64,000 bases of DNA. Origin: Actinoplanes derwentensis. Lineage in GTDB: Bacteria; Actinomycetota; Actinomycetes; Mycobacteriales; Micromonosporaceae. The position numbers and the translations under genes were made by a program. The stretch covers positions 372,001-436,000 of the forward strand of contig NZ_LT629758.1 of NCBI RefSeq assembly GCF_900104725.1. Direction: 5' to 3'. The notes beneath the pieces were generated by a model, which saw nothing but the letters and a program-made list of their open reading frames with translations, did no database searches and was not told the origin of the DNA. Positions 16,901 through 23,863 of this stretch are shown one piece after another (position 1 is the stretch's first letter; each line of letters opens with the position of its first letter).

Positions 16901-17275
16901 ATGAGCATCGGCCACGGCGACCACCACCATCACCACCACACGCTCGCCCCCTCCGGGCAGGGCACGGTGATGCTGAACATCGGTGACGGGATCGGCGCGC
17001 TGATCATCCAGACGCCCAGCTGGCTGCACGGGCACGAGATCGAGGTGTCCCCGGTGGGTGACACGTCGGCGCGCACCCACGCCGCGGTCCGTGCCCGGTA
17101 CGTCCGGTCGGGTGTCACCTACTGTGTGGTCATCGACAGTCTCGCCGAGGGCCGCTACGTGGTCTGGCAGGACGAGGACACCCCGCTCACCCAGGTCGAC
17201 GTGCGTGGCGGCGCCGTCGCCGAGGTCACCTGGCCGGCCAATCTGGTCCCCGGTAGGACGCCGCTCACCGTCTAG
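16901..17275 (+). CDS. histidine-rich small protein following DUF4331 gene
   Basis: A 124-aa protein with a natural His cluster near the N-terminus (GHGDHHHHHHTLAP, residues 4-17), then a beta-rich domain with no recognised family (VMLNIGDGIGALIIQTPSWLHGHEIEVSP). The His cluster is a probable metal-binding or metal-chaperone segment. ATG at 16901 follows GGAGG. It ends in TAG at 17273, which is also the first half of the -10 of the AraC gene. In a probable operon with the DUF4331 gene 29 bases upstream; role unknown. Confidence 0.7.
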   Translation: MSIGHGDHHHHHHTLAPSGQGTVMLNIGDGIGALIIQTPSWLHGHEIEVSPVGDTSARTHAAVRARYVRSGVTYCVVIDSLAEGRYVVWQDEDTPLTQVDVRGGAVAEVTWPANLVPGRTPLTV

Positions 17276-17285
17276 TCTGGACGGC
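17273..17285 (+). promoter_or_regulatory. leaderless promoter -10 of the AraC gene
   Basis: TAGTCT at 17273-17278 overlaps the stop codon of the His-rich gene and ends 7 bases before the ATG at 17286; no ribosome site is present. This fits leaderless transcription of the regulator. Confidence 0.45.
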
Positions 17286-18299
17286 ATGGCAGGCGGTCGG
17301 CTCCCGGGCCCGGCGTCACCGGGCGCGGGAGCCCCGGCACATGTGGGTCTGCGCACCAGTGACATGGCGGAGGCCCGGGAGTTCTGCCGTGAGCTCTACT
17401 ACGGCACGTTGCAGATCGAGCCGGTCGGGGACCCCGGCCGGCTGGAGTTCAGCGCCGACGTGGCCTCACTGGGGCCGATCACGCTCGGCGACATCCGGTA
17501 CGGGACCGACGTCCACGTCTCGATCGGTTCCCTGGAGACGTCGTATCACGTCCTCATCCCCCTCACCGGGTGGCTGCGATCCCGGCACCGGGGCGCGGTG
17601 GTCCTCGCGGACCCGACCCGCGCCGTGGTCTACCGCCCCACCGGCGACATCGAACTGGACTGGCCCGGCACCTGCCGCCTGCTGAGCGTCAAGGTCGAAC
17701 GCGCCGCCCTGGAACGCGAACTGGACGCCGCCCTGGACCAGCGGGTCGTCTCCCCGATGCCGCTGGGCGCCAGCTTCGACCTGGTCGACGGCCCCGGCCG
17801 CACCTGGTCCGCCCTGGTCCGCCTGCTGCTCACCGAGCTGAGCGCCCCCGACACCCTGGCCATCCGCCCCCGGATGGCCGCCCGCTGGCGCGACATGGTG
17901 GTGCGGGGCCTGGCCTTGACGGTCGAACACCCCTACGGCGAGGAACCGGCCGGCCTGCAGGGCCCGCACCGTCCCCGCACGGTGAAACGGGCCCTGGACG
18001 CGATCCACGCCGAACCCCGCCGAGGCTGGACCGCCCGCGACCTGTCCACGGTCGCCGGCGTCGGCGTCCGGGTCCTGCAGGACTCCTTCCGCCGCCACGT
18101 GGGCATGTCCCCGCTGACCTACCTGCGCCGCCTGCGCCTGGACGAGGTCCACGCCGAACTCTCCCGCTCCGACCCGGGCCAGACAAACGTCAGCGAGGTC
18201 GCCTACAGCTGGGGTTTCACCCATTTGGGCCGGTTCGCCGGCGCCTACCGCTCCCGCTTCGGCGCCACCCCGTCCCAAACCCTCAGAGACAGAACCTGA
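17286..18299 (+). CDS. AraC-family transcriptional regulator
   Basis: A 337-aa regulator: N-terminal cupin-like AraC-binding domain (GTDVHVSIGSLETSYHVLIPLTGWLRSRHRG) and C-terminal double helix-turn-helix (ARDLSTVAGVGVRVLQDSFRRHVGMSPLTYLRRLRLDEVH then SEVAYSWGFTHLGRFAGAYRSRFGATPSQTLR). Start at ATG 17286 by the leaderless -10 and because upstream residues are a shadow of the His-rich gene. Its position after the Tat/DUF4331/His-rich genes makes it their likely regulator. The stop codon is followed immediately by a sequence repeated in inverted form after glgC. Confidence 0.85.
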   Translation: MAGGRLPGPASPGAGAPAHVGLRTSDMAEAREFCRELYYGTLQIEPVGDPGRLEFSADVASLGPITLGDIRYGTDVHVSIGSLETSYHVLIPLTGWLRSRHRGAVVLADPTRAVVYRPTGDIELDWPGTCRLLSVKVERAALERELDAALDQRVVSPMPLGASFDLVDGPGRTWSALVRLLLTELSAPDTLAIRPRMAARWRDMVVRGLALTVEHPYGEEPAGLQGPHRPRTVKRALDAIHAEPRRGWTARDLSTVAGVGVRVLQDSFRRHVGMSPLTYLRRLRLDEVHAELSRSDPGQTNVSEVAYSWGFTHLGRFAGAYRSRFGATPSQTLRDRT

Positions 18300-18302
18300 A
18301 CC

Positions 18303-18410
18303 CCCTTCTCCGGTACGCCCCACACCCCCACAATCGCACCACCCCGCCCGCCCCGTCCCCGCAAGGCAGGCGCCTCTCCAGGCCACCCCGCGGCCGCCGG
18401 GCCGAATGCG
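18303..18410 (+). repeat. left arm of inverted repeat, after araC stop
   Basis: Starting 3 bases after the AraC stop codon, about 108 bases match the reverse complement of 20214-20323, the sequence directly after the glgC stop. Near-identical blocks are CCCTTCTCCGGTACGCC (18303-18319), a CGCACCACCCCGCCC block near 18335-18350 and GCCGGGCCGAATGCG (18396-18410); the middle is diverged. It could be a mobile intergenic repeat or a scar of recombination. Confidence 0.75.
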
Positions 18411-18656
18411 GTGGTCCAGGCCAACCCCGTTGCGGTGGTCCAGGCCAACCCTGTTCCCAACGGGCCAACCCTGTTCCCAACGGGCCAACCCTGTTCCCTC
18501 CAGGACAGCCCCATCGCCCAGCGGGCCACCCCCGTTCCCTCCAGGCCGTCCTCGTTCTCCGTCGGCCCGTTCCTGTTTTCCTGTGGTCCGTCCTCGTTGC
18601 CCTCCGGGCCGCTCCTGTTCTGCTCCAGGCCGTCCCCGTTTCGCGCCGGGCCGATG
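18407..18656 (+). repeat. degenerate tandem-repeat (minisatellite) tract
   Basis: Two 24-bp units (18407-18430, 18431-18454) differing by one base, then two 20-bp units (18455-18474, 18475-18494), then six or more degenerate units of about 20-22 bp with the core GGCC-x-x-CC-x-x-GTT up to about 18656. Open frames cross the tract but have no coding look. The 620 bases from 18300 to 18920 hold no gene I can support. Confidence 0.7.
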
Positions 18657-18920
18657 CTGCGTCTCTTCCGTGCCAGATCCAGAGCCTCTCCGAACCAGCT
18701 CGGTGCCTACCAGCCGAACACGGTGTTCCAGCCCGGTCCCCGTATGCGTCGGCTATTTCCACAACCTGGCCTGTACCCGGGAATGCCACCAACCCGGCCC
18801 TTGCTGGCATCGCCCGACTGGCATCACGCTAGCGGTACGGGCGCTCCTAGAATGGCGGTCCAGTAGTTTGGCATGATCGACTTCTTACAGTTTTCCGTGA
18901 CGGTGCGGGAGAATTATTGT

Positions 18921-20120
18921 ATGAGTCAGCCAGCGTTGTTCAGCGTTTCCGGAATGCGTGACCGAACCAAGGCAAGAAACTATTCCCCAAGTCGCGACGA
19001 GTTCCGCCGCGACCACGAGATACGTCGCGCGTGGGGCCTTCAGCGCCGCCACACCGAGAAGCTCCGCCGTATCCGTGAACGCGATTCCATGCCCCTCTCC
19101 CGCGAGGACCGTGAGTGGCTGGCTTCTCTCACACCACGGTCTTCACCACCACCACTGCCGCCCACGCTCGCGCCGCCCGCGCCCGCGCCGCCCGCGCCCG
19201 CGCCGCTCACACCGCAGGCTCCGATCACGCCGCAGGCTCCGCCGATGCCCATGCCCATGCCCATGCCTAGGTCTGTGCCGCCGGCGTCGAGGTCAGAGGT
19301 TTCGGCCTCGTATGCGGTGGGTTCGGAGTCTGAGTCGCCGTTGATCTTGGTGCCGTGGTTCGAGGGGTCTGCTCTGCGGTTGGCGGCGGCGGATCGGCGG
19401 GTGCTGTTGGGTTCCGCGCTGATCGGGCTTCAGTCGGGAATACTGTTGCTTCGACCGGGCCAGGGTGGGTTTTTATTGAATCATTGTGGTGTCGGCCGGA
19501 TGGTGGTCGCGGTGACACTCGGCGCATTTTCGGGCGGCGCTGTTTGTGGTGGTCGCCGTGCTATGGCTGGGGAGAAGTCACTCAGGTTTGCGTCTGGAGT
19601 TCTGTTGTCTGAGTGGGGGTCTTCGAGAAAGCTCTGGTTGAAAAATATTGAACGTCGCGTGCGGCGAAAAGACGATTTAATTGTCGGGAGAATCGGCTTT
19701 TTCGTAATTCTGGAACGGGGTTCCGGAATTCATGGTTCGGCGCCGGTGAGGCAGTCTTGGTCACCGCGCGCGAATCCGGCTGATTTTGCCGTGGTGGTCC
19801 GTCTCGGGAAAGTCCGGTGGCACTACGGCATTGTGCCACCGGGGATCGGTGCCATTGTCGTTTTCGGACAGCCCGGAGGTTGGCGGCCGGCCGGGACTCT
19901 CTGCGACCACGGCAGTGGTTCTGGGCTGGTTTGCGGGGGCCTCAGCATTTGCCGCTGCCGAAGGCGGGGCCTTCTCGTCGACGTTCACGCCTCGCATGCC
20001 TCGCACACTTCACGCCTCGCATGCCTCGCACGACCTACTTGCTGGCTATCGGGCGCCCGGGCTGGTGTTGGCGTCGGGGTGAAGACACCTGACTGCGGCG
20101 GGGAAGGGGCCGGGCCGTAA
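18921..20120 (+). CDS. doubtful ORF, possibly coding only in its first half
   Basis: Frame of up to 399 aa from ATG 18921 (GGGAGA upstream); an in-frame ATG lies at 18873. The first 70 residues are basic and charged (MRDRTKARNYSPSRDEFRRD, then WGLQRRHTEKLRRIRERD), followed by a Pro/Ala and Met-Pro repeat tract (about residues 77-118) and a segment with good third-position GC to about 19450. Beyond that codon bias is lost, GC falls, and two perfect or near-perfect hairpins and a 23-bp direct repeat occur, so the last 220 codons are probably not protein-coding. No family recognised. It may be a decayed or recently acquired gene. Confidence 0.35.
   Translation: MSQPALFSVSGMRDRTKARNYSPSRDEFRRDHEIRRAWGLQRRHTEKLRRIRERDSMPLSREDREWLASLTPRSSPPPLPPTLAPPAPAPPAPAPLTPQAPITPQAPPMPMPMPMPRSVPPASRSEVSASYAVGSESESPLILVPWFEGSALRLAAADRRVLLGSALIGLQSGILLLRPGQGGFLLNHCGVGRMVVAVTLGAFSGGAVCGGRRAMAGEKSLRFASGVLLSEWGSSRKLWLKNIERRVRRKDDLIVGRIGFFVILERGSGIHGSAPVRQSWSPRANPADFAVVVRLGKVRWHYGIVPPGIGAIVVFGQPGGWRPAGTLCDHGSGSGLVCGGLSICRCRRRGLLVDVHASHASHTSRLACLARPTCWLSGARAGVGVGVKTPDCGGEGAGP
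19706..19730. repeat. hairpin in low-GC stretch
   Basis: An 11-bp stem (19706-19716 with 19720-19730, one wobble pair) around GGG, in the most AT-rich stretch of the window. No T-tract follows. It may be a terminator or part of a structured RNA. Confidence 0.4.
19814..19842. repeat. perfect 10-bp inverted repeat with 9-base loop
   Basis: CCGGTGGCAC (19814-19823) pairs exactly with GTGCCACCGG (19833-19842). It lies about 80 bases after the previous hairpin, both inside the doubtful ORF, which argues against protein coding there. Confidence 0.45.
19984..20031 (+). repeat. 23-bp direct repeat
   Basis: TTCACGCCTCGCATGCCTCG plus CAC occurs at 19984-20006 and again at 20009-20031 with no mismatch (period 25), each copy itself containing a duplicated GCCTCGCA. 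Low-complexity sequence in the doubtful ORF. Confidence 0.65.
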
Positions 20121-20150
20121 ATGGCCGCCTGGTGGGGTGGGTGGGCTGGG

Positions 20151-20198
20151 GGCAAGCGTCTGATGCCGTTGACGGCTGACCGGGCCAGATCCGGCGTG
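20151..20198 (+). repeat. inverted 48-bp copy of the glgC 5' coding region
   Basis: This stretch matches the sense strand of glgC codons near its start (reverse complement of 21467-21514) at 45 of 48 positions. In the + frame it still encodes [16 protein letters not shown], against [16 protein letters not shown] in GlgC. Similarity continues about 6 bases further on the left with a 6-base deletion. It is a fragment, not a gene, and sits just inside the right repeat arm. Confidence 0.85.
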
Positions 20199-20213
20199 GT
20201 TGGCCCTGAGGGG

Positions 20214-20323
20214 CGCATTCGGCCCGGCGGGCGCGGGGGGACCGGGAGGGACGCCCCGCCTCGCGAGGACGAGGCGGGGCGGGGTGGTGCGGTTGTGAGG
20301 CTGTCTGGCGTACCGGAGAAGGG
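20214..20323 (-). repeat. right arm of inverted repeat, after glgC stop
   Basis: Reverse-complement counterpart of 18303-18410, beginning immediately after the glgC stop codon. The 17-base outer block and the 15-base inner block are identical between arms. Unlike the left arm, this copy contains a perfect hairpin (20252-20281). Confidence 0.75.
20252..20281. terminator. hairpin terminator after glgC
   Basis: A perfect 12-bp stem (20252-20263 with 20270-20281) and 6-base loop lie 43 bases downstream of the glgC stop on the minus strand. No T-tract. The matching part of the left repeat arm does not keep this hairpin. Confidence 0.65.
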
Positions 20324-21556
20324 TTAGAGTTCGATTCTTTGGCCCTTGCCGATTACCACCACGCCGTTGTCGCTGACCGTGTAGAGCTTGCGGTCCTTTT
20401 CCAGGTCCACGCCGATCTGGGCGCCCTCGGGGATGATCACGTTCTTGTCGATGATCGCGTTGCGGATGACCGCGCGGCGGCCGACGGAGACGCCCTCCAT
20501 GATGACCGCGCCGTCGACGTGGGCCCACGAGTTCACCCGGACGTTGGGGGAGATCACCGAGCGTTCGACCAGGGCGCCGGAGACGACCACGCCGGGGGAG
20601 ATCATCGAGTCTATGGCGCGGCCCTGGCGATCGTCGTAGCCGTGGACGAACTTCGCGGGGGGCCAGGAACCGTAGTTGGTGAAGATCGGCCAGTCGTGGT
20701 TGTACAGGTTGAAGATCGGCAGGGTGGCGATCAGGTCCCGGTGGGCCTCGTAGAACGAGTCCAGGGTGCCCACGTCGCGCCAGTAGCCGCGGTCGCGGTC
20801 GGTGGAGCCGGGGACGTCGTTGTCGCGGAAGTCGTAGACGTTCGCCTCGCCCTTCTCCACCAGCATCGGGATGATGTTGCCGCCCATGTCGTGCTTGCTG
20901 TCCGGGTTCTGGGCGTCGGCGGTGACCGCCTCGCACAGCGCCCGGGTGGTGAAGACGTAGTTGCCCATCGACGCGTAGACCTCGTCGGGGGAGTCGGGCA
21001 GGCCCACCGCGTCCTTCGGCTTCTCCCGGAACGCCTTGATCCGCTTGCCGTCGGGGCCGACGTCGATGACCCCGAACTGGTCGGCGAGCGACAGCGGCTG
21101 GCGGATGCCGGCGACGGTGACCGCGGCGCCCGAGGCGATGTGGTCGTTGACCATCTGCTTCGGGTCCATGCGGTAGATGTGGTCGGCACCGAAGACGATG
21201 ACGTAGTCGGGCGACTCGTCGTTGATCAGGTTGAGACTCTGGTAGATCGCGTCGGCGGAACCGGCGAACCAGCGCGGGCCCAGGCGCTGCTGCGCGGGGA
21301 CCGGGGTGACGTAGTTGCCGAGCAGAGTCGACATCCGCCACGTCTTGGAGATGTGCCGGTCGAGAGAGTGCGATTTGTACTGCGTCAGAACGACGATCTT
21401 CAGATAACCCGCGTTCGCCAGGTTCGACAGCACGAAATCGATCATGCGATAGATACCGCCGAAGGGCACGCCGGGTTTGGCCCGGTCAGCCGTCAACGGC
21501 ATCAGGCGCTTGCCTTCCCCACCAGCCAGAACGATCGCAAGCACCTTGACAGCCAT
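20324..21556 (-). CDS. glgC: glucose-1-phosphate adenylyltransferase (ADP-glucose pyrophosphorylase)
   Basis: A 410-aa enzyme making ADP-glucose from ATP and glucose 1-phosphate, first committed step of glycogen or alpha-glucan synthesis. Nucleotidyl-transferase signature [20 protein letters not shown] (residues 5-24), then [43 protein letters not shown] and [15 protein letters not shown]; a left-handed beta-helix domain follows. The ATG at 21556 is chosen because the conserved N-terminus starts there and TAGCGT lies 7 bases upstream, consistent with a leaderless message. A 48-bp piece of this gene's start is duplicated in inverted form beyond its 3' end. Confidence 0.95.
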
Positions 21557-21569
21557 GGGGAGGACGCTA
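21557..21569 (-). promoter_or_regulatory. leaderless promoter -10 of glgC
   Basis: Reading the minus strand, TAGCGT (21569-21564) ends 7 bases before the ATG at 21556; the intervening CCTCCCC is not a ribosome-binding site. Confidence 0.45.
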
Positions 21570-21655
21570 ATATTCCGGCCGCCTGTGCGCCACCCGAAAG
21601 GGCGGTTCGAAATATCTTGCTGGCGCTGCAAACTTCTTGCGAGTCCCCGGGGGAG

Positions 21656-23863
21656 TCAGGCCGCCGGTCTCACCGCCGCCTCCCGCAATAGTACGTCGAT
21701 CGCCTCCGGGGCCGCCGGGCGGCCGAAGTGATACCCCTGAACGAGCGGGCAGTCCAGCTCCCGCAGCAGGTTCGCCTGGGCCGCCGTCTCCACTCCCTCA
21801 GCGACCGCGAGCAGGTCCTGACTGCGGGCCAATTCCAGGATCGCCCTGGTCAAGCTCACGTCCTGGGGTCGCGGCGGGTCCTGATGGCGGCGGATGAAGG
21901 ACTGGTCGATCTTGAGAATGTCGACCGGCAGAGTGTGCAGATAGGCCAGCGACGAGTACCCGGTGCCGAAGTCGTCGATGGCGATCCGGATGCCGTAGGC
22001 CCGCAGGATCCCCAGCACATTGGTGTCCGCGGCGTCGACGAGTACCGATTCGGTGATCTCCAGCACCAGAGCCGCCGCCGGCAACCCGGTGTCCGCCAGG
22101 ATCCGCAGCACCGAGTCGGCGAACCCGGGATCGCGCAGCTGATGGGTGGAGACGTTGACGGTCAGGTAGAGACCGTGCTCGTGGTGCCAGACGGCGGCCT
22201 GCGCGCACGCCAGCCGCAGTGCCCGCGCGCCGATCGTCCCGATCAGGCCGGTCTGTTCGGCCACCGGGATGAACACCCCCGGCGGGATCAGCTCGCCGTC
22301 CTGGCGCCAGCGCATCAGCGCCTCCACCCCGGTGATCCGCCCGGTGGCGGTGTCCACCACCGGCTGATAGTGCATGAACAGGCTGCCGTCGAGGATCGCC
22401 TGCCGCAGTCCGGCCGCGATCCGGGCCCGGTCGGACTGCTCGGCCCGCAGCGACTCGTCGAACCGGGCGATTCCGCCGCCGGCCTGTTTCGCGGCCCGCA
22501 GCGCCAGGTCGGCGTCGCTGAGCACGGCGTCGTTGCCGGTCACCCCACCGGCGATCCCGGCCCGCGCGGTGAGCGGGATCCGCCGGTCGTCCACCAGGAA
22601 CGGCGCCGAACCCACCGCCTCGACCACCCGCGCGGCCAGCCCGGAGGCGTCGGCCCCGGGACCGAGCAGGAAACCGAACTCGTCGCCGCCGATCCGGGCC
22701 ACCATCTCCACCTCCGCCGCGAACAGCAGCAGCCGCCCGGCGACCTGCCGCAGCACCGCGTCACCGACCGAGTGCCCGTAGGTGTCGTTGACCTCCTTGA
22801 ACCCGTCCAGCGCGCAGAGGATCAGCCCGTACGGCCGGTCCCCGGCGACGGCCCGGCCCAGGCGCTCGGTGAGCAGATCCCGGTTGGCGAGACCGGTCAG
22901 CGCGTCGTGCTCGGCCCGGTACGTCAACTGATCCTGCAGCAGCCGCTGTTCGTCCAGGGCCCCCCGGGCCTCGCGGGCCCGCCGCCCGGCGAGCCGGGCC
23001 AGCCCGACGATCCGCAGCAGCAGCAACCCGCTGAGCCCGGACGTGAGCAGGGCCGGCACGATCACGACGGCGCTCGGGTTCGCGATCGCGGGCAACAGCG
23101 GGGCGGCGACCGCGGCGGTGTACATCGCGATCAGCGCGGTCCGGCCGTTCCCAGCGGCCCCGGCCCGGAACTTCCCGGCGTCGGGGTGCACCGCGGCCGC
23201 GGCCAGCAGCACCCAGGCGCACTGGATGAGCAGGTGACAGATGCCGCCGGGCTGGAACGGCCCGGTGCCGACCGACCCGGTCGCGGCGTAGACCATGTGC
23301 GGGGCGATCATCGTCACCGCACCGGCGGCGAGCAGCCGGGCCGGGCCACGGCGCGGGTCGGTCAGATTGCGCAGCGCGGTCCCCAGCAACGTCAGGTCGA
23401 TCACCGCGTAGAGCGCGGCCAGCGCCCGGTCGACCTGCTGGTAGCCGGGGTCCCCGAGATACGGCAGCACGATGAACGACCACGCCAGCATCGCCACCGC
23501 GAGCACCACCGCGCCGGCCTCGGCCGCCGAACCGGGCCGCCGGCGCCGGCCGAACTGGAAGGCCCCGGCGGCGAAGAGGGCGTACGGCAACGCCAGCGAC
23601 AGCCCCATCGGGGTGTTCGTCGGCGGGGCGTCGTGCAGCCCCCACCCGGCCGATACGACCAGCCCGGCGGCGACCGCCGAGAGCATCAGCCACCAGGCGC
23701 ACCGGTGCCGGGTGGCGGTCCGCCAGAGGACCATCACCCAGGCGGTCTGGAGCAGCAGCCATACGGCGGTGCTGTCCAGCGCACGGGCGGCGAACACGGC
23801 CACGAAGCCACCCGCGAGGGTGTACTGCCAGGCCGGGATGCGGGGGATCTGCACGTCCGTCAT
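21656..23863 (-). CDS. membrane GGDEF-EAL protein (cyclic-di-GMP synthesis/hydrolysis)
   Basis: A 735-aa protein: about eight hydrophobic segments in residues 15-295, a short coiled linker, a GGDEF domain (RIGGDEFGFLL, GGDEF at about 392-396) and an EAL domain (GVEALMRWR, EAL at about 514-516). Both catalytic signatures are intact, including NVSTHQL, LEITES, DDFGTGYSSL, KIDQSFI and AEGVET, so it may both make and degrade cyclic-di-GMP, with the membrane part sensing an unknown signal. I place the start at ATG 23863; an in-frame GTG at 23926 would add 21 residues that do not look conserved. It lies between glgC (same strand) and glgA (opposite). Confidence 0.88.
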   Translation of the reverse strand: MTDVQIPRIPAWQYTLAGGFVAVFAARALDSTAVWLLLQTAWVMVLWRTATRHRCAWWLMLSAVAAGLVVSAGWGLHDAPPTNTPMGLSLALPYALFAAGAFQFGRRRRPGSAAEAGAVVLAVAMLAWSFIVLPYLGDPGYQQVDRALAALYAVIDLTLLGTALRNLTDPRRGPARLLAAGAVTMIAPHMVYAATGSVGTGPFQPGGICHLLIQCAWVLLAAAAVHPDAGKFRAGAAGNGRTALIAMYTAAVAAPLLPAIANPSAVVIVPALLTSGLSGLLLLRIVGLARLAGRRAREARGALDEQRLLQDQLTYRAEHDALTGLANRDLLTERLGRAVAGDRPYGLILCALDGFKEVNDTYGHSVGDAVLRQVAGRLLLFAAEVEMVARIGGDEFGFLLGPGADASGLAARVVEAVGSAPFLVDDRRIPLTARAGIAGGVTGNDAVLSDADLALRAAKQAGGGIARFDESLRAEQSDRARIAAGLRQAILDGSLFMHYQPVVDTATGRITGVEALMRWRQDGELIPPGVFIPVAEQTGLIGTIGARALRLACAQAAVWHHEHGLYLTVNVSTHQLRDPGFADSVLRILADTGLPAAALVLEITESVLVDAADTNVLGILRAYGIRIAIDDFGTGYSSLAYLHTLPVDILKIDQSFIRRHQDPPRPQDVSLTRAILELARSQDLLAVAEGVETAAQANLLRELDCPLVQGYHFGRPAAPEAIDVLLREAAVRPAA

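Follow-up and report, generated by a model that had tools for sequence, protein, structure and literature searches.

Why should an AraC-family regulator gene and glgC, two convergent genes in Actinoplanes derwentensis, be followed by the same sequence? Both lie in the window analysed here, a stretch of 64,000 nucleotides (G000:C1:372001-436000) that is part of the single-contig 10.65 Mb genome. An earlier note had described inverted related sequences directly behind the two stop codons, enclosing a minisatellite and a glgC fragment but no clear gene, and had suggested either a dispersed repeat family that inserts at gene ends or an invertible cassette. Its gene identities are confirmed: the left neighbour (17286..18299, plus strand) contains the Pfam domains AraC_binding_2 and HTH_18, and the right neighbour (20324..21556, minus strand) is glgC, scoring above cut-off with NCBIfam NF002023 and TIGR02091. 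The inverted sequences are real as well, and each starts within a few bases of a stop codon as had been claimed. Arm 1 (18303..18429, plus strand) has its outer end 3 nt past the araC stop and its inner end at GGGCCGAATGCGGTGGTC, arm 2 (20195..20323, minus strand) is flush with the glgC stop codon, and arm 1 is 81% identical to the reverse complement of 20195-20323 over ~129 bp, with an alignment score of 134 against a maximum of 41 in 1000 pairs of dinucleotide shuffles. Rfam gave no match at E up to 1 across 17000-21800. Here we propose, with a probability of roughly 0.72, that the arms are old dispersed gene-end repeats of Actinoplanes that have been vertically inherited and homogenised by ectopic gene conversion, and that the interior of the locus is a later addition.

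The two arms belong to a large family. The 16-mer core CGCCGGGCCGAATGCG has 124 matches with at most one mismatch in the A. derwentensis genome against 6 for a control, and a profile built on 74 copies recovered 115 arms in 87 fetched A. derwentensis loci, which were chosen by arm or gene matches. In 760 kb sampled without bias, as 38 stretches of 20 kb at even spacing, 17 arms (one incomplete) reached E < 1e-4, and extrapolation to 10.65 Mb gives ~240 per genome; the initial whole-genome screen for arms had returned 219 candidates. Family members are ~108-125 bp long and contain three boxes, TTTTCCGGTACG on the 5' side, one around CCCCGCGAGG in the middle and GCGACCGCCGGGCCGAATGCGGTGGTCACCG on the 3' side, the conservation of the 3' box being inflated because most of the 115 arms were fetched via the exact 16-mer; GGCCGAATGCG is exact in just 8 of the 17 unbiased arms. 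A literature search found no paper describing such a repeat family. When a loose box pattern was run on 200 Micromonosporaceae genomes, G015 was an outlier (344 matches), followed by A. derwentensis (175), G104 (160) and G135 (153), the pattern being uninformative for most genomes, in which the listed matches are largely coding and the reversed control is unlike that background. G015, with the most box-pattern matches of the 200 genomes, is yet without a match to the gene family found in the interior of the araC-glgC locus.

The placement of the arms is far from random. Only 2/115 lie inside called genes, as defined by a codon-usage caller made for this analysis, and among the 113 outside genes, 87 are downstream of a same-strand gene, 92 have the 3' end of a convergent gene ahead of them, and for 71 both statements hold, whereas of 563 sampled gaps 100 are convergent (p 3e-26). 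The outer arm end falls between -20 and +15 nt from the stop in 54 of 87 cases, compared with 11 of 92 for the inner end (p 1.6e-12), and since the outer end is found near a stop so much more often, the arms are anchored by one particular end. Facing pairs less than 4 kb apart number 23, while 69/115 arms are without a facing partner within 4 kb, and at loci L132 and L140 a single arm occupies the whole space between two stops. Arm orientation showed no bias between the contig halves, taken irrespective of the origin (22 plus and 30 minus in one, 32 plus and 31 minus in the other). A second dispersed palindromic repeat (GTGTGCCGACTTGGGGTGCG... and GTGTGGTGATCTGTGGTGCG...) was seen between or beside arms near L010/L018, L032, L034 and L037.

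The closest relative record found was that of A. couchii NBRC 106145 (araC 90% identical), and the other relatives are likewise Actinoplanes. The araC-glgC gap of A. couchii measures 281 bp and has arms after both stops with 40 bp between them. One arm is present in the glgC-araC gap of A. sandaracinus, A. flavus and A. italicus, and G007 carries a G007-type arm at the glgC gene end, which is the end occupied by arm 2. The profile search of this gap found no arm in 19 of 23 related species, including five with a gap of at most 25 bp, with the qualifications that arms there may be too diverged for the profile, that overextended araC frames make some gap sizes unreliable (e.g. L303) and that L311 gave no glgC. 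The arm is clearly dispensable at the glgC-araC gap in relatives.

The same gene ends are occupied well beyond this locus. Thirty A. couchii arms were examined, chosen for their likeness to the arm behind couchii araC, and 16 of the 21 traceable ones match an A. derwentensis arm at the orthologous gene end, a count that includes both araC-glgC arms and omits nine arms with a neighbour gene outside the compared A. derwentensis sequence; one more arm (L346) fell 5 nt outside the 60-nt limit. In G007, 7/20 arms lie at the gene end of an A. derwentensis arm, as judged by eye from alignment ends and leaving uncounted L289, where the neighbour gene is common and the gene end is not. This count was reached with no more than about half of the A. 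derwentensis arms fetched, and compares with ~1 expected under random choice of convergent gaps (an estimated 5.3% of gaps; p 5e-5). Of 13 further arms, taken from G015, G019 and G021, 4 are at gene ends that also have an arm in A. derwentensis. Judged from these sequence comparisons, many of the present arms would be old residents at their gene ends. Thus, while the family is dispersed and anchored at stops as the earlier note had suggested, in ~240 copies, its wording that the family inserts there lacks support for the present copies, given the shared ends in A. couchii and G007. Gain or loss does occur, as at L140 (10562-10679), where one arm bridges two gene ends that in A. couchii hold a facing pair (L323/L326); with a single arm in one species and a pair in the other, one partner must have been lost or gained.

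Although the positions are shared, the sequences have changed in a species-specific manner. For 7 of 15 couchii pairs the orthologue ranks first among the 115 A. derwentensis arms (combined p 3e-10), the 15 pairs excluding L335, its A. derwentensis arm not being among the 115; two pairs rank low (109 and 37 of 115). An A. derwentensis paralogue is closer than the couchii orthologue in 11 of the 15 pairs. Diagnostic for the species, the sequence GGCCGAATGCG is present in 27/30 similarity-selected A. derwentensis arms vs 0/30 couchii arms, GGCCGGATGCG or GGCCGGACGCG occurs in 18/30 couchii arms, and the couchii form is carried by one of the 17 unbiased A. derwentensis arms. The arms of G007 have a sequence variant of their own with the box order unchanged, and in 7 of 8 orthologous A. 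derwentensis-G007 pairs, at least 55% of the G007 paralogues outscore the orthologue. When arms were trimmed to start at TACG, the G007 orthologues did not stand out clearly from chance (combined p 0.08), and at this distance repeated insertion at preferred sites is a possible alternative.

Likeness between arms also depends on distance within the genome. The mean arm-arm score is 92.6 for arms less than 4 kb apart (n=28) and 58.5 beyond 500 kb (p 4e-8), with no effect at 4-20 kb (p 0.44) and a small one at 20-500 kb (p 0.003 and 1e-4), and the facing arms of one locus are often mutual best matches. Local copying would yield the same distance effect as conversion. Local sub-families can arise among adjacent arms, whatever their orientation (L109; L097/L098), and the three arms within 6 kb at L109 (genome positions 4729905, 4732646 and 4735374) are mutual closest matches. 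Taken together, the shared gene ends, the species-specific consensus and the greater likeness of close copies argue for vertical inheritance with homogenisation by ectopic gene conversion, which would explain the facts best, with local copying or preferred re-insertion possible for part of them. The arms would be inherited at fixed gene ends, and conversion between dispersed copies would keep those within each genome alike.

The competing view that survives best, and that we nevertheless regard as unlikely, holds that the arms are non-autonomous mobile elements of a MITE- or REP-like kind that are still spreading, and that a preference for convergent gaps has led to independent acquisition of the same sites. 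Such spreading would fit the species-specific arm families and the five related species with a gap of at most 25 bp and no arm, yet it sits poorly with a coincidence of gene ends far above random choice among convergent gaps and with couchii orthologues that are closer than chance. It would also fit the L140 partner arm present in A. couchii and missing in A. derwentensis, and the lone arms that take up the whole stop-to-stop gap at L132 and L140, but the search for a transposase of the arms, which covered the RAYT family, gave no matches to PF01797 (Y1_Tnp) in the A. derwentensis genome, with the control positive in 5/14 genomes.

The interior of the locus, 1.8 kb between the arms, is absent from A. 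couchii, and since both arms are present there, we infer that it was added in the A. derwentensis lineage. The minisatellite and the glgC fragment that had been noticed inside are both real: tandem repeats were called by TRF at 18407..18547, where the first unit (period 24) includes the inner end of arm 1, and further at 18522-18653 and 19984-20031, and alignment shows that glgC coding nucleotides 34-88 recur in inverted orientation as a 57-bp copy at 20140..20196 (plus strand). The statement that the interior holds no clear gene, in contrast, has to be abandoned. The ORF at 18921..20120 (plus strand), which begins MSQPALFSVSGMRDRTK..., is a member of a multicopy family, with codons 1-72 (18921-19136) conserved and a variable proline-rich linker past codon 72. 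The median dN/dS of 0.12 over these 72 codons (55 pairs, 11 copies without a stop) indicates a real gene under purifying selection. Blastn among 13 copies and alignments place the stretch homologous to other members at 18865..19594 (plus strand), starting ~56 bp 5' of the start codon and with a 3' block at 19416-19567; in most of the 13 copies, homology runs from ~60 bp before the start codon to ~0.65-0.9 kb past it.

The interior gene family has 14 matches in the A. derwentensis genome, and among the 13 listed copies (18921-20120 and loci L085, L090, L105, L110, L116, L139, L142 and L156-L160), two have an in-frame stop. Of 60 genomes sampled from the genus, 52 have members of the family. A. 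couchii has one copy, 66% identical, in a draft genome in which copies could be collapsed, and given the 13-14 copies here, those of A. derwentensis were probably multiplied recently, after the couchii split. Convergent gaps hold nine of the 13 copies (p 6e-5), and four copies are located between facing arms. The interior ORF has no match to Pfam or NCBIfam families at E up to 1, and fold prediction gave a confident helix spanning residues 23-56, followed by a second one (61-70), with the rest at low confidence and a mean pLDDT of 52. Much of the family begins with M-x-Q-L-x-L-F; the strict form QL-x-LF is found in 22/48 homologues, a looser form in 40/48, and QPALF in 10 of the 13 A. derwentensis copies. 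This motif resembles the sliding-clamp consensus QLxLF, which, according to passages in PMC4549789, occurs in many transposases, but at the C-terminus, whereas it is N-terminal here. The family may thus carry a candidate sliding-clamp motif, and with 13-14 copies and no known domain it is possibly a mobile element of unknown type.

The interior gene was also considered as a mobiliser of the arms, a role that is disfavoured by G015, which has arm matches and no match to the gene, and by A. couchii, which has at least 41 arm matches (40 of 340 candidates scored) but one gene copy. Nor, at 19 loci in other species, is the gene flanked within ~1.5 kb by inverted repeats of at least 40 bp (E 1e-6). 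That arm pairs generally capture fragments of a neighbouring gene was rejected, since this was seen only at araC-glgC among 13 facing pairs. The sequence GGTGGTCACCG, present in several copies of the 3' block of the gene family (19416-19567), equals the 11 bases that end the arm consensus, either by chance or as a shared site. The 1.8 kb would then have been inserted between both arms and have brought the recently multiplied small gene with it, and the araC-glgC locus would illustrate the growth of a tiny convergent gap, in which arms came first and were followed by a gene copy, by minisatellites and by a piece of glgC in inverted orientation.

What the arms might do at gene ends is suggested by their folding and composition. 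The folding z averages -0.48 over 115 arms and -1.61 over 62 convergent gene ends that lack an arm, with 13% and 44%, respectively, below -2. That the arms are ordinary intrinsic (hairpin) terminators, alike through their GC-rich composition, is therefore very improbable, in spite of their position directly after stop codons and of two of eight singly folded arms below z -2 (arm 2 at -2.15, with arm 1 at +0.75). RNAalifold on 96 arms returned four pairs and no compensatory change, and the identity among arms goes far beyond composition, both in the arm 1-arm 2 alignment (134 vs at most 41 in shuffles) and in the 16-mer (124 vs 6). A mutual-information scan of the 3'-anchored block of 105 arms also found no convincing helix, its top pairs resembling register shifts. 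The frequent mutual best matches of facing arms lend some colour to the earlier suggestion of a local cassette, invertible or recombination-prone and framed by inverted repeats of its own, but this suggestion can hardly be upheld with ~240 arm copies, 69/115 of the arms without a facing partner, couchii arms just 40 bp apart and no recombinase recognised by Pfam or NCBIfam in the interior ORF (18921-20120).

Composition points in another direction. On the gene-sense strand, 20-40 nt past the stop, C reaches 0.48 and G 0.23, and the C minus G skew over 70 nt is 0.23 in arms vs 0.08 in controls (p 4e-6), with 0.21 in couchii arms and 0.18 in G007 arms. YC dimers number 16.6 in arms and 14.1 in controls. 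However, a skew above 0.3 is confined to 30% of arms (vs 16% of controls), and the ends of the genes that precede arms show a C skew of their own (C 0.34-0.41, G 0.25-0.29). Rho loading (rut) sites are C-rich, G-poor, unstructured RNA downstream of a gene. As the arms are C-rich, G-poor and weakly structured after the stop, a Rho-type end site is our first choice, and we tentatively place a function as Rho-type transcription end sites that separate convergent genes, which the sequence features may reflect, ahead of a protein-bound, BIME-like DNA site. The wider idea, that ~240 portable Rho-type terminators replace hairpin terminators at convergent ends, are kept across species and are rewritten genome-wide in concert, we put forward as a rather doubtful one. 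If the arms do end transcription, they would represent a natural homogenised terminator set in an antibiotic-producing genus.

Among known systems, REP/BIME elements come close to the arms, as passages in PMC2817692, PMC3733652 and PMC12306157 describe them in more than 100 copies per genome, extragenic, some near stops, often between convergent genes and in facing pairs, with a species-specific consensus. The arms are likewise numerous (~240), extragenic (2/115 in genes) and found in opposite pairs (23). They differ in that REP sequences are palindromes of 20-40 bp, whereas the arms measure ~108-125 bp and show no conserved hairpin-forming imperfect palindrome (four pairs, none compensatory; mean z -0.48), and in that many arms stand at identical gene ends across species. 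With MITEs they share inverted pairs around sequence without a recognised transposase, but 69/115 arms are without a facing partner, one arm end is anchored at the stop, and the partner at L140 varies between species. Integron attC sites are short elements of similar length directly after stops and end in RYYYAAC and GTTRRRY; terminal RYYYAAC and GTTRRRY were found in 0/115 arms, and the genes next to arms converge, while attC genes are tandem cassettes. Intrinsic terminators have a stable hairpin after the stop, unlike the arms (13% vs 44% below z -2). The composition of rut sites (C-rich, G-poor and unstructured, downstream of a gene) is on average that of the arms, and we know of no rut sites that form a homogenised sequence family. 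Dispersed bacterial repeats are usually attributed to transposition, whereas many of these arms seem to have been passed down vertically at the same gene ends, their sequences changing together. The finding is thus broader than first noted: the arms are a variant of stop-anchored dispersed repeats, with RAYT not found, and the araC-glgC locus holds a probable later insertion between two of their copies.
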